Shown piece by piece: positions 6,489-29,000 of a stretch of DNA of 64,000 nucleotides. Each line of letters begins with the position of its first letter. The first letter of the stretch is position 1. Below the pieces are notes generated by a model. It did no database searches and was not told the origin of the DNA. It saw only the letters and a list, made by a program, of their open reading frames with translations. The DNA is from Chloroflexales bacterium ZM16-3. Its GTDB lineage: Bacteria > Chloroflexota > Chloroflexia > Chloroflexales > Chloroflexaceae. The stretch lies in assembly GCA_004138175.2 (NCBI GenBank), contig RYFE02000003.1:124001-188000 (forward strand), read 5' to 3'. The position numbers were made by a program, and so were the translations under genes.

Positions 6489-6520
6489 AAGCACGATGCC
6501 TTTGCATCGTGCTTTTTTTT
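6489..6520. terminator. Intrinsic terminator after the STAS gene
   Basis: AAGCACGATGC (6489-6499) pairs perfectly with GCATCGTGCTT (6504-6514) and is followed by an eight-T run ending at 6520. It closes the partner-switching operon. It also abuts the stop of the convergent kinase gene, which it may serve less well. Confidence 0.9.
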
Positions 6521-7505
6521 ATTGGCCGAGCACCGCCGCAAGCTCCTCGGGTGAGACGACAGCGTTGCCGAGCCGCTGCACCACCAGCGCCGCTGCCGTG
6601 TTCGCGATCTGGGCTGCGTCAAGGGGTGACATGCCGCTGGCTAGGCCGAGGGTCGCCACGGCGATGAAGGTGTCTCCCGCGCCGATCGTGTCGTAGACCT
6701 CGCTCACCTGGACGGCGGGCAGGTGCTGGTAGCCTGTCTCCGCGCCGATCAGCGAGAGCCCGTGCGGCCCGCGCGTGACGATCACCAGCCCGGCCTGCAG
6801 CTCGTCGCGCAGCCGAGCTAGTCCGGCCACAAAGTCCTCCTCGCACGCTAGCCTCGCCCCCAGGGCCGCCTCGGCCTCCTGGTTGTTGCACCGGAAGAGA
6901 TCCGCGCCGTGGTAGGCGTGGGAGTTGCCCTGGGCGTCTACAGTGAAGAGCACGCCGTGGGCGCGGCAGAGCTCGCGGGCCGCCGCGATCACGGCGGGGG
7001 TCATGAGCCCGAGCTGGTAGTCGGAGCAGATCAGGGCATCGGCCTGGGGGATCTGCTCGTGGAGGGCGGCGATGACGTGCTGCTCCTCTGCTGGCGAGAG
7101 GGGCGAGCGGTCGAGTCGGTCGAGCCGGGCGACCTGCTGGGGCAGTCGCGGCGACTCGTCGGCCAGGATGCGGGTCTTACGGGTGGTGGGGCGATCCGGC
7201 GAGGTGACGAGGCCATGGGTGGCGATCTCGGCCTGGCGCAGCAGGTCGTGCAGCTGCTGGCCCTCGATGTCGTCGCCGATGATGCCAATCTGGGCGGCCG
7301 CGCTGCCGAGGGCGACGATGTTGCGGGATGGGTTGGCGGCCCCGCCGAGGATGATCTGGCGGCGGAGCAGCTCAAGAACGGGCACGGGCGCCTCGCGGGA
7401 GAGGCGGGTGGCTCGGCCGAAGAGGTATTCGTCGAGGGACACGTCGCCAACGACGAGGATGCGCATGCCGGCGAGGCGGGGGATGAGGGCGGCGAGTGGG
7501 TTCAT
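6519..7505 (-). CDS. PfkB-family sugar kinase, RfaE1/HldE kinase-domain-like
   Basis: A 328-residue PfkB-family kinase most similar in layout to the N-terminal kinase domain of HldE/RfaE, which phosphorylates heptose 7-phosphate at C1. It has MRILVVGDVSLDEYLFG near the N-terminus, the substrate loop LGGAAN (the usual following VA is PS here), CSDYQLGLM in mid-protein and the catalytic anion hole DTIGAGDTFIA near the C-terminus (Asp base). The nucleotidyltransferase domain of bifunctional HldE is absent. Chloroflexota lack LPS, so the product may feed another heptosylated polymer; this is inference. The start ATG at 7505 follows the heptad array. Confidence 0.82.
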   Translation of the reverse strand: MNPLAALIPRLAGMRILVVGDVSLDEYLFGRATRLSREAPVPVLELLRRQIILGGAANPSRNIVALGSAAAQIGIIGDDIEGQQLHDLLRQAEIATHGLVTSPDRPTTRKTRILADESPRLPQQVARLDRLDRSPLSPAEEQHVIAALHEQIPQADALICSDYQLGLMTPAVIAAARELCRAHGVLFTVDAQGNSHAYHGADLFRCNNQEAEAALGARLACEEDFVAGLARLRDELQAGLVIVTRGPHGLSLIGAETGYQHLPAVQVSEVYDTIGAGDTFIAVATLGLASGMSPLDAAQIANTAAALVVQRLGNAVVSPEELAAVLGQ

Positions 7506-26057: not shown

Positions 26058-27530
26058 GTGAACGACCAGACAATCATTGTTGGCGCTGGACTCGGCGGCC
26101 TTGCCGCCGCCATCCGCCTCGCCGCCGCCGGCTACTCTGTCACGCTGCTTGAGAAGAATGATCGCGTCGGCGGTAAGCTCAACCTCGTCCAGGAGCAGGG
26201 CTACACCTTCGACACCGGCCCCTCGCTCCTGACGATGCCCTGGGTCATCCGCGAGCTCTTTGTCGCCGCTGGACGACGGATGGAGGACTACCTCAGCCTC
26301 GACCAGATCGAGCCCACATGCCGCTACCTCTGGCCCGACGGCACCGCCTTCCATGCCTGGCAGCGCCTCCCGCAGCTCATCCAGGAGATTGAGCGCGTTA
26401 GCCCCGGCGATATCCCCGGCTTCTTTCGCTTCCTCGCCCACACTGCCCGGATCTACGATGCGGTGGCCGATAATTTCTTGCTCAAGCCCTTCGACGGCAT
26501 CTCCGAGCTGATCACGCCCCGCCTGCTGCGCGATGGCCCGCAGATCGACTCGCTCCGCACTGTGGATGCGGCGGTGCGCGCCCACTTCCGCAGCCCCTAT
26601 CTGCGCCAGATCTTTAACCGCTACGCCACCTACAACGGATCGTCGCCCTACCTCTCTCCGGCCACCTTCAATGTGATCGCCTATATTGAGATGGCCGAGG
26701 GTGGCTGGTATGTGTGCGGCGGGATGTACGCGCTCGGTCGGGCCATGCTTCGCCTCGCCGAGGAGCTGGGCGTGCAGGTGCGCACTGGGGCCGCCGTGGC
26801 CGAGGTGCTGCTAGAGCGTGGTTCCGCCTGCGGGGTGCGCTTAGCCTGCGGCGAGCGGCTTCCCGCCGCCCGCGTGATCGTCAACGCAGACCCACGCTAC
26901 GCCTACGCGGCCCTGCTCCCTGGCCAGGAACGCACCGCTGCTCGTCTCGCCCGTCTGGAACCCTCCTGTAGCGGCTATATGCTCTTTCTGGGCGTCGACC
27001 GTATCTATCCGCAGCTGGCCCACCACAACATCTTCTTCAGCGCCGATTACCCGCGCGAGTTCCAGGCGATCTTCCAGAAAGGCGTGCCTGCCGTTGACCC
27101 CACCGTCTATGTGGCCACGACCTGCCTGAGCGACCCGCAGCACGCCCCGCCTGGCCATATGAACATCTTCGTCCTCGTCAATGCGCCCGCCCTCGGCCAG
27201 CGTGTGAATTGGCAGCGTGAGGCCGCGCCTTACCGCGATCTGGTGCTGACGAAGCTTGAGCGCATGGGCCTGTCCGACCTGCGCGGCCACATCGCCTACG
27301 AGCAGATATGGACCCCTGTAGATATCCAGGAGCGCTACAATGCCGCTGGCGGCGCGATCTATGGCCTGTCGTCGAATAATCCCTTCTCGGCGTTTATGCG
27401 CCCGCCCCTGCGCGCCCACGGCCTGCGCAACCTCTACTTCGTCGGCGGCGGCACCCATCCGGGCGGCGGGATACCGCTCGTCCTCCTCTCTGGCAAGGCG
27501 GTTGCCGAGCGGGTTGTCGCTGATAGCTGA
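26058..27530 (+). CDS. crtI: Phytoene desaturase-family FAD protein (CrtI-like)
   Basis: A 490-residue amine-oxidase-fold flavoprotein of the CrtI family, which dehydrogenates phytoene (or related C30/C40 polyenes) in carotenoid synthesis. It starts with the dinucleotide-binding motif IIVGAGLGGLAAAIRLAAAG (GTG start at 26058), then LLEKNDRVGGK, and ends with the family C-terminal signature GGTHPGGGIPLVLLSGK. In between, TGPSLLTMPWVIREL and NVIAYIEMAEGGWYVCGGMY match CrtI. Paralogues such as CrtD or CrtN cannot be excluded. It stands alone here, without crtB. It is consistent with a pigmented, probably phototrophic, chloroflexote. Confidence 0.88.
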   Translation: MNDQTIIVGAGLGGLAAAIRLAAAGYSVTLLEKNDRVGGKLNLVQEQGYTFDTGPSLLTMPWVIRELFVAAGRRMEDYLSLDQIEPTCRYLWPDGTAFHAWQRLPQLIQEIERVSPGDIPGFFRFLAHTARIYDAVADNFLLKPFDGISELITPRLLRDGPQIDSLRTVDAAVRAHFRSPYLRQIFNRYATYNGSSPYLSPATFNVIAYIEMAEGGWYVCGGMYALGRAMLRLAEELGVQVRTGAAVAEVLLERGSACGVRLACGERLPAARVIVNADPRYAYAALLPGQERTAARLARLEPSCSGYMLFLGVDRIYPQLAHHNIFFSADYPREFQAIFQKGVPAVDPTVYVATTCLSDPQHAPPGHMNIFVLVNAPALGQRVNWQREAAPYRDLVLTKLERMGLSDLRGHIAYEQIWTPVDIQERYNAAGGAIYGLSSNNPFSAFMRPPLRAHGLRNLYFVGGGTHPGGGIPLVLLSGKAVAERVVADS

Positions 27531-27571: not shown

Positions 27572-27645
27572 ACGCATCTTATCGCTGTAGAACCTCGTTC
27601 GCCCCCGTACTCTTGGTCTATCATCGTTAACTTGCGATAGACTAC

Positions 27646-27674
27646 TTGATTTTAGCGCATCACAGTGCTATCAT
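27646..27674 (+). promoter_or_regulatory. Strong sigma70-type promoter in front of the non-coding region
   Basis: TTGATT (27646-27651) and TATCAT (27669-27674) are separated by exactly 17 bp. The expected start is near 27681. No coding sequence follows on this strand for over 1.3 kb, so the promoter most simply serves a non-coding RNA. Confidence 0.6.
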
Positions 27675-27680
27675 AGCCAC

Positions 27681-28192
27681 GAAGCCTCAAGAGAACAGCA
27701 AATAACCAAGGAGAACCTGCACAGCCGAACAAGTGTAGTCGGATGGTAAGCGCTGAACCTCACTGTAAAGTAATTTACGTGAACGAAGCGTACGTTAGGG
27801 GAAATGGTCAGGCCGTAAGCCGGATCAGCGAGACTAACAGACAAGCGCCAGGTCGCTGAAGGAGCGACCGGATGCTCTGCGAACCAGATGACTTCCTCCA
27901 GCGCAAAGCTCACAGCGTACGGAACAGACAAGAATCCTACGCGAGAATGGAGCCATACCCAAAGGCAAAAGCTGGCATAGCGACTGTCGGACACACCGCC
28001 ATATGGCAGGAGAGGCATCATCGCTACTTGAAGAGCAGCCAAGGGTTTGCAGCGGATGAGTAGGCGGGCGGCGAAACACGAACGGCGAAGCTGGTCTCTT
28101 GAGGTATCACGCTTGTACGCTCGGAAGACGGACGATGACGGACTTCGGACGGACGTAGCAAGACACGTACAAAAGAGGTAAAAGCAAAAAAA
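27681..28192 (+). ncRNA. Candidate long structured RNA of unknown family
   Basis: About 510 nt with no plausible gene, less GC-rich than its neighbours, A-rich between helices, and placed between a consensus promoter and a 26-bp stem. Local hairpins seen: CCGA/TCGG (27725-27742); TCAC+GTAAA closed by a GUAA tetraloop (27760-27782); TGGTC+GGC (27805-27827); CC+GGTCGCT/AGCGACC+GG (27848-27871); GCGTA/TACGC (27915-27942). The GNRA-type loop and A-rich single strands occur on the plus-strand reading, which fixes the orientation. It lacks the conserved segments of RNase P RNA, tmRNA, SRP RNA and group II intron domain V that I can recall. Orphan omega-RNA (HEARO) or a large ornate RNA are possible. 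Confidence 0.45.
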
Positions 28193-28248
28193 CGTAAACA
28201 CAAAGGGGCCGCAGGCGGAATTGCCTGCGGCCCCTTTGTGTTTACGTT
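28191..28248 (-). terminator. Perfect 26-bp terminator stem
   Basis: Positions 28191-28216 pair perfectly with 28223-28248 around a 6-nt loop. On the minus strand the stem is followed by a run of seven T, the hallmark of an intrinsic terminator, so it ends the fab operon. On the plus strand it has no T-run but would still cap the 3' end of the candidate RNA. Confidence 0.9.
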
Positions 28249-28250
28249 GC

Positions 28251-29000
28251 TCACCCAGCCATTCGCCAGCCGCCGTCGACGGCCAGGGTATGGCCGGTGA
28301 TGTACGAGGCCAGTGGAGACGCCAGAAAGAGCACCGCCGCTGACACCTCTTCGGGGCGACCCGCCCGGCGCATCGCGATGATATCCTCGCCCCAGGCTCG
28401 CACCTCGCTCGGCAGCACATCAAGCTGCTCTGTATCCACAAAACCTGGTGCCACCGCATTCACCGTGATCGACCAGGCTGCGGCCTCGCGGGCGAGCGAG
28501 CGGGTGAACCCGAGGACGCCGGCAGTGGCCGCCGAGTAGTCGGCCTGGCCAGGGAATCCGCCGCTGGCGTGAAGTGCCGAGAGGTTGACGATCCGCCCGT
28601 AGCGCCGCTGCATCATCGGCTTGAGGGCCGCGCGGCAGGTGTGATAGACGCTGGTGAGGTTTATGGCGATGCTCTCGCGCCAGCGCTCGCTGCTCATCGT
28701 CTCAATGGTGCCGTAGCTGGCGCGCCCGGCACAGTTCACCAGAATGTCCAACTGTCCCCAGCGATTGAGGGCGGCCCCTACCAGGGCAGGCCCGGTGGCC
28801 GGGTCGGCCACGTCGGCCTGAATCGCCTCGGCCACGCCGCCTGCCACCTCCACCAGTGCTTGTGTTTTGGCTGCAGCATCAGCTCGCTCACGGTAGCAGA
28901 AGAGCACGCGCGCCCCGCGACGGGCGAGTTCATAAACAACCGCACGTCCGATTCCCCGTGATCCGCCGGTGACGATGGCTACCTGCCCCGTGAAGTCCAT
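28251..29000 (-). CDS. FabG-like short-chain dehydrogenase lacking catalytic Ser and Lys
   Basis: A classical SDR of 249 residues closest to 3-oxoacyl-ACP reductase. The nucleotide turn TGGSRGIGRA, the NAG-equivalent NCAGRAS, the structural Asn in INLTSVY and PGFVDTE are present. The active site is not. In the segment NLSALHASGGFPGQADYSAAT the Tyr is kept, the residue 13 before it (catalytic Ser) is Ala, and the residue 4 after it (catalytic Lys) is Thr. The neighbouring FabG has all three. This copy is therefore probably inactive alone and may pair with FabG as a non-catalytic subunit, or be a divergent enzyme. It ends against the fab operon terminator. Confidence 0.88.
   Translation of the reverse strand: MDFTGQVAIVTGGSRGIGRAVVYELARRGARVLFCYRERADAAAKTQALVEVAGGVAEAIQADVADPATGPALVGAALNRWGQLDILVNCAGRASYGTIETMSSERWRESIAINLTSVYHTCRAALKPMMQRRYGRIVNLSALHASGGFPGQADYSAATAGVLGFTRSLAREAAAWSITVNAVAPGFVDTEQLDVLPSEVRAWGEDIIAMRRAGRPEEVSAAVLFLASPLASYITGHTLAVDGGWRMAG

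Follow-up and report, generated by a model that had tools for sequence, protein, structure and literature searches.

Between a carotenoid desaturase gene (crtI) and a convergent SDR gene, a gap of 0.72 kb holds what is very probably a stand-alone gene for a non-coding, structured RNA, the representative of a new Chloroflexales family that would act in trans as a structural RNA (Table 1). By "the window" we mean the whole stretch of DNA analyzed, 64,000 nucleotides in length. In order, the gap contains a palindrome, a promoter, a fold closed by helix P1, a variable tail and a 26-bp hairpin. The element is conserved in relatives, its P1-closed fold covaries, promoter and palindrome are conserved along with it, no coding frame is conserved and no Rfam family matches; the architecture of the RNA suggests that it acts in trans and serves as a scaffold. 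The initial annotation had proposed a 510-nt element at 27681-28192. A non-coding RNA gene is indeed found there, but the end has to be moved: as predicted from the DNA, the transcript probably reaches about 28230-28248, giving about 550 nt, with the folded, conserved part at 27684-28105. The 26-bp stem described in the same place as terminal to the RNA exists as well, but lies past that end, and the RNA is closed by P1 instead.

Table 1. The predicted RNA gene, its parts and its neighbors (positions in the window).
Feature	Position	Strand	Remarks
CrtI-family carotenoid desaturase gene	26058-27530	+	TIGR02734; 5' of the RNA, same strand in most homologues
Palindrome ATCGTTAActtgCGAT, likely regulator-binding site	27623-27638	.	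upstream of the -35 box
Promoter TTGATT-17-TATCAT, extended -10 (TG)	27646-27674	+	pattern in 45/48 homologues
Predicted RNA gene	27681-28248	+	predicted start about 7 nt past the -10 box, predicted end at the terminator hairpin
Conserved structured RNA	27684-28105	+	MAFFT alignment A1, RNAalifold, pair counts, P1 test in 53 homologues
Closing helix P1	27684-27694 with 28095-28105	+	tested in 53 homologues
Core domain (models R1 and R2)	27747-27912	+	P3, P3a, P4, P4a, P5 and flanking joiners
P3	27750-27791 (27750-27753 with 27788-27791)	+	encloses hairpin P3a; covariation in A3
P4 (GUUAG with CUAAC)	27794-27838 (27794-27798 with 27834-27838)	+	GGGAAA / GGGAGA internal loop, apical P4a
P5 hairpin (AGCGCC...GGAUGCU)	27844-27876	+	most conserved part; A3
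P6 (GCUC with GAGC)	27908-27953 (27908-27911 with 27950-27953)	+	around hairpin P6a (27915-27919 with 27938-27942)
P7 domain (ACCC with GGGU)	27957-28046 (27957-27960 with 28043-28046)	+	inner helices; 90.2% of cells paired
Variable 3' tail	28106-28190	+	tandem repeats in at least one relative
26-bp perfect inverted repeat	28191-28248	.	inner 12-bp GC stem
FabG-like SDR gene	28251-29000	-	convergent neighbor; FabD or other genes instead in relatives

Base composition sets the RNA stretch apart from its surroundings: GC content drops from about 0.65 to 0.46-0.57, in agreement with the lower GC first reported for it, and the AT skew rises to as much as +0.44. Its own genome holds one copy, according to a search with R1, a covariance model of the core; the second match that a DNA search gave there is the hairpin read backwards. 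Within this hairpin, the inner 12-bp GC stem is followed by UUUGUGUUU on the plus strand and by a T-run on the minus strand, and a terminator scan finds the 28191-28248 stem to be terminator-like on the minus strand only, the side of the T-run. We read the stem as a terminator that is probably shared by both strands and includes the end of the plus-strand RNA. In the Roseiflexus-like loci L106, L107 and L108, a hairpin with a T-run, recognized by eye, stands almost directly 3' of P1. The tail differs in length among genomes, and in one relative (L009, 1959-2073) 3.8 copies of a 30-nt tandem unit lie between P1 and the terminator. The predicted size of the RNA is about 0.4 to 0.55 kb.

The order Chloroflexales consists mostly of photosynthetic filamentous bacteria. 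A DNA search of 61 genomes returned matches in 32, the source genome included (the weakest, on contig C73 of G056, is not at any of the RNA loci found later), and model R1 recognized the RNA in 48 of the 82 genomes of the order. With G043, added through its crtI locus, and G037, added through the second model, R2, the count comes to 50 of 82, one of which (G054) carries only the paralogue described below. This bears out the expectation that the element is conserved in relatives. By family, the RNA is present in 35 of 41 genomes of f1, 5 of 6 of f2 and 10 of 26 of f4, and in none of the 9 of f3. A search of 158 genomes of the class gave 47 matches and one of 400 genomes of the phylum gave 30, all within the Chloroflexales; these searches used strict filters and scored few candidates per genome, so that weak matches can be lost, and because one of the wider searches missed G054, which R1 found in the order, and the R1 search of the order missed G043 and G037, absence outside the order means that no match of that strength was found. 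A pattern scan of named genomes yielded 31 records, among them Chloroflexus, Oscillochloris, Chloroploca, Viridilinea and Kouleothrix, 28 of which are recognized by R1. The other three, from outside the Chloroflexota (L051, L066, L067), were set aside as chance matches of the DNA pattern because R1 does not recognize them. One record titled Candidatus Gracilibacteria (L048, JAAUTF010000047.1) carries the RNA, and its public name looks wrong. A tight link to phototrophy was not found, as the reaction-centre family PF00124, present in 63 of the 82 genomes, occurs in 42 of the 50 RNA-bearing genomes (8 are without it) versus 21 of the 32 that lack the RNA.

On the plus strand, 27681-28110 folds better than all of 100 dinucleotide shuffles (z -4.5), versus a z of -1.2 on the minus strand, where the fold is not better than that of shuffles. 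Three alignments were made: A1, an unfitted MAFFT alignment of 28 of the 30 homologues then in hand (L031 and L032 were left out); A2, of 25 rows, with four near-duplicates removed and L043 added; and A3, in which 52 core sequences, all the matches of one search, were fitted to the model. RNAalifold proposes 65 pairs for A1, 36 of which are changed on both sides, with pairing kept, in at least one sequence. A 63-pair model of our own scores 0.285 on the same alignment, versus 0.153 after shuffling and at most 0.096 with slid partners; both-sided change is seen in 27 of its 63 pairs and in 143 cells, versus 47.0 in shuffled data, and the number of further pair types, one of five measures, is 68 versus 62.5, a value reached by 17 of 500 shuffles. 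Helix 9 of that model was misregistered by one column (7.2% paired); in the RNAalifold register, the hairpin pairs in most sequences.

R2 matches the core domain with 138.3 bits in the window. On A3, 25 of the 31 core pairs show both-sided change, 93.8% of cells are paired and the score is 0.491, versus 0.179 after shuffling and at most 0.101 with slid partners, in an alignment that was fitted to the structure. The P3 pair 27753/27788 takes all six standard forms (CG, GC, AU, UA, GU, UG) among the 52 homologues, and both-sided change occurs in at least one homologue for each of the five P4 pairs (98.5% paired) and for 10 of 13 pairs in P5 (97.5% paired); P3a is the weakest core helix, with 75.5% of cells paired. 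Beyond the core, P6 is paired in 87.5% of cells in 28 sequences, with no both-sided change within it. The most constant stretches include CAAGCG, GGGAAA opposite GGGAGAC, CAAGCGC, GAUGCUNUGYGAG and AAAGCUC. These sequence comparisons establish a covarying, multi-branched fold that is closed by P1 and has been kept in evolution. The folding noted in the initial annotation is confirmed by the folding energy of the plus strand; the GUAA tetraloop singled out there is present, but the loop of its hairpin is not conserved in A1.

The closing helix, P1, keeps its complementarity while its sequence differs between families, with arms as unlike as GCCTCAAG, CCCCAGGG and GCTCCAAGATG. It takes the form GCCTCAAGAG/CTCTTGAGGC, with near variants, in most of f1, GCCTCGAGAG/CTCTCGAGGC in Chloroflexus, CCCCAGGG/CCCTGGGG in Roseiflexus-like genomes and AGCCCTG/CAGGGCT in part of f2. 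In 44 of 53 homologues (L131, the 3' end of which is missing, was left out), the best helix between a 5' and a 3' window equals or exceeds the 95th percentile of shuffles, a count that followed a look at the data: a first test, the 3' window of which did not take in the shorter Roseiflexus-like RNAs, gave 27 of 53, and the windows were then shifted, the 5' one from 95-45 to 80-40 nt upstream of the core and the 3' one from 150-300 to 100-280 nt downstream of it. Nine homologues stay below the cut-off. P1 is present with a low score in L017, L113 and L114; L021 and L026 have another helix as their best, yet P1 can be seen with mismatches in A1; and in L031, L115, L118 and L119 the best helix is likewise not P1. 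Above the cut-off, L155 and L121 pass with helices or lengths (431 and 505 nt) that may not correspond to P1.

The RNA is preceded by the promoter that had been proposed for it, TTGATT-17-TATCAT. As a lone consensus match this sequence is within chance (1 found versus 0.6 expected); among non-paralogue homologues, the pattern occurs in 45 of 48, versus 4.5 expected from shuffles, and its position is shared by 43. The exceptions are the five f2 homologues, all of which lack the pattern at the usual place. A palindrome (ATCGTnAAnnnnCGAT) lies upstream in 48 of 48 non-paralogue homologues and in 0 of 6 paralogues, separated from the -35 box by 23 nt in most homologues and by 26-27 nt in several Roseiflexus-like ones. 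A non-paralogue copy is present in 49 genomes, and both counts cover all of these except G025. In seven whole genomes, the palindrome pattern has 10 occurrences, of which 7 belong to this promoter; the 3 sites elsewhere compare with 2 for a reversed control pattern, and the idea of a regulon motif was dropped on this account. Since the palindrome is nearly unique in each genome, it appears to serve a putative regulator with about one target. One genome (G032; loci L152 and L161) has a second copy of the palindrome away from the RNA, at C1:4707221-4707239, where R2 finds no RNA.

Known RNA families do not account for the element. No Rfam 15 model matches the 64-kb window at its gathering score; with E up to 10, 13 sub-threshold matches appear between 27500 and 28300, of which 12 fall on the terminator stem or overlap it, and with E up to 1 none lies inside the RNA at 14 homologue loci, where the sole sub-threshold match (sR28, 27.8 bits versus 39, at L112) is beyond the 3' end of the RNA. 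The family is thus unlisted, as first supposed, and the Rfam scan gave no match to the RNase P, tmRNA or intron models that might have explained it. 6S RNA, tmRNA and RNase P RNA resemble it as stand-alone structured RNA genes, and each has a gene of its own elsewhere: RF00010 (RNase P) has its only match in the genome at C62:196175, and the over-threshold genes for RF00023 (tmRNA) and RF00013 (6S RNA) are at C43:58667 and C62:119455, with no match of the three at this locus. The RNase P RNA of the source genome (G000:C62:196175-196607) scores 70.7 bits with RF00010, versus an Rfam cut-off of 100, and is perhaps unusual or of another RNase P type. Chloroflexi-1 RNA, which was reported as a candidate structured RNA of Chloroflexus aggregans (PMC2864571), is in Rfam as RF01698 and matches neither the window nor the homologue loci scanned. 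Bacterial Y RNAs, bound by Ro60/Rsr, are alike in being structured RNAs held by a protein; TROVE occurs in 11 of the 82 genomes of the order and in only 7 of the 50 that bear the RNA, and for lack of such co-occurrence a Ro/Y RNA was rejected. No protein partner of the RNA emerged. A coding gene was rejected too, in line with the initial view that no frame is credible: the best plus-strand frame, of 63 aa, is matched only partly or with stops in congeners, and 11 of 86 pairwise gap runs among six congeners are multiples of three. No report of this RNA was found among open-licence papers, a weak negative.

The genomic setting is conserved on one side. Of the first 30 loci, 27 have crtI 5' of the RNA and in the same orientation (it was not found in L017, L021 and L025), as do all 22 non-paralogue loci in a second set, of which five come from genomes already represented in the first; in G037, the RNA is about 2 kb beyond crtI. 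On the other side, 16 of 19 non-paralogue loci examined have a convergent frame as the next long one. The identity of the next frame differs, with an SDR gene at 15 of the 27 loci that have crtI and FabD in six others examined. The RNA has no match in 32 of the 82 genomes of the order. Among RNA-lacking genomes, crtI is present in 19 of the 21 searched (21 of 24 when G043, G037 and G054 are counted), and R2 finds no RNA at the crtI loci of those 19; of 21 loci scanned, only L131, from G043, has it. In G020, crtI and fabD are about 20 nt apart, a clean empty site at a junction that holds the RNA in L008, L009, L012, L014, L019 and L120. That lineage can therefore do without the RNA, and the empty site, together with the genomes that give no match, argues against a universal housekeeping RNA. 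The position between carotenoid and fatty-acid genes invites the thought of a membrane-related role; vertical descent would explain the linkage equally well.

Six f4 genomes (G042, G048, G051, G054, G056, G060) carry a diverged paralogue, with loci at L158 (5001-5140, in G042), L162, L155, L156 and L116-L119. It is without the palindrome and has a promoter of its own, TTGTAA-17-TATACT, in 6 of 6. In the four loci tested (L116-L119) it is not beside crtI; a same-strand frame lies 3' of it in four loci examined (L116, L117, L119, L155), and in G042 the protein of this frame combines cyclic-nucleotide-binding domains with an M50 peptidase domain. On the other side of the paralogue, the loci examined have an SDR gene. 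One IMG/VR viral contig, L163, has the RNA core (6500-6890, minus strand) directly 5' of a phage portal gene, beside phage head genes. What we take to be a trpC fragment is joined within the 5' part of this RNA, so the contig is probably a chimeric assembly; a phage-borne copy is possible. A second viral pattern search, blastn of the L163 copy against phages and blastn of the window's RNA against plasmids all found nothing, and with the sole viral contig likely to be chimeric, a mobile or phage RNA was dropped as a reading.

Several other explanations were weighed against a trans-acting structural RNA. Were the element part of a neighboring message, as a crtI 3' UTR or the leader of the downstream gene, one would point to crtI on the same strand in most loci and to the paralogue 5' of a same-strand frame; the conserved promoter and palindrome that separate crtI from the RNA, a next frame that is mostly convergent and varies in identity, and the hairpin with T-run right after P1 in Roseiflexus-like homologues argue against a leader or UTR, and we regard a cis element as very improbable. 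A regulator that base-pairs with transcripts of the neighboring carotenoid and fatty-acid (membrane) genes would fit the position between crtI and fabG or fabD in many genomes. It is made doubtful by the frequency of crtI without the RNA and by the paralogue, which sits elsewhere, and vertical descent at one locus can give linkage of this kind. Even less can be said for the initial suggestion of an orphan omega RNA or a group II intron remnant, a guess to which our analysis adds nothing in favor: HEARO/omega RNAs and group II introns are also large and structured, but here a single genomic copy is fixed at one place, between genes and behind its own promoter, no Rfam model for either matches at the locus or at the homologue loci scanned, and the named neighbors, crtI and SDR genes rather than IscB/TnpB, include no transposase, nuclease or reverse transcriptase. 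A mobile-element remnant thus has next to no likelihood.

The remaining alternatives concern what a large structured RNA does. OLE, GOLLD and ROOL are large, intricate bacterial RNAs of unknown biochemical role, and "large ornate RNA", another of the initial suggestions, is a fair description of kind, given the size and the extensive covarying secondary structure, but not of family membership, as the present RNA has no Rfam match (the OLE model has none in the window or at 14 homologue loci) and is found in Chloroflexales only among the genomes searched. An RNA-only homo-oligomer after the manner of these RNAs would be of comparable complexity (among those studied, OLE has 577 nt and ROOL 659 nt; PMC12286853) but receives no support from model matches to their families, and we think it unlikely, if less so than a ribozyme. 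In the latter, the GGGAAA/GGGAGA internal loop and the P5 joiners would form an active site and P1 would close a catalytic body. Size, intricate fold and nearly invariant unpaired nucleotides speak for catalysis, as does the argument, made for OLE, that ribozymes are among the large structured bacterial RNAs whose function is known (PMC11332333); against it, no Rfam ribozyme or intron model matches, and a fixed gene with promoter and terminator implies no flanking exons or processing sites, which leaves a ribozyme about as doubtful as the base-pairing regulator. Scaffold, ribozyme and assembly would look alike at the level of sequence. A wider proposal, more plausible than either of these alternatives and still less likely than not, takes the RNA for an ancient, order-wide large RNA, either a new ribozyme or a new machine made of RNA only or of RNA and protein, which would have a transcription factor dedicated to this single target and a sister that arose by duplication and diverged in the Roseiflexus branch.

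For the trans-acting structural RNA that we favor, the following course may be envisaged. The housekeeping RNA polymerase would transcribe the gene when a DNA-binding regulator, with essentially this one target, permits it, and that regulator would sense the conditions under which the RNA is made. The transcript would end at the hairpin terminator, fold into a compact body closed by P1 and act in trans, where its most likely role would be to scaffold an RNA-protein particle, with an RNA assembly as the other option. Its lack in part of the order suggests that it is useful but not universally needed, and in the Roseiflexus branch it would have been duplicated.

The RNA appears to be new as a family, of a kind, the large orphan structured RNAs, already known from OLE, GOLLD and ROOL (PMC12286853). 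Large structured RNAs are described as rare in bacteria, and those with a known role as performing central tasks (PMC11332333). The present one adds a family beyond the 4227 of Rfam 15, and because it is found in named organisms, its expression, structure and partners are testable at once. An upstream site with essentially one target offers a handle on when the RNA is made, and its natural loss with intact flanks provides a built-in comparison.
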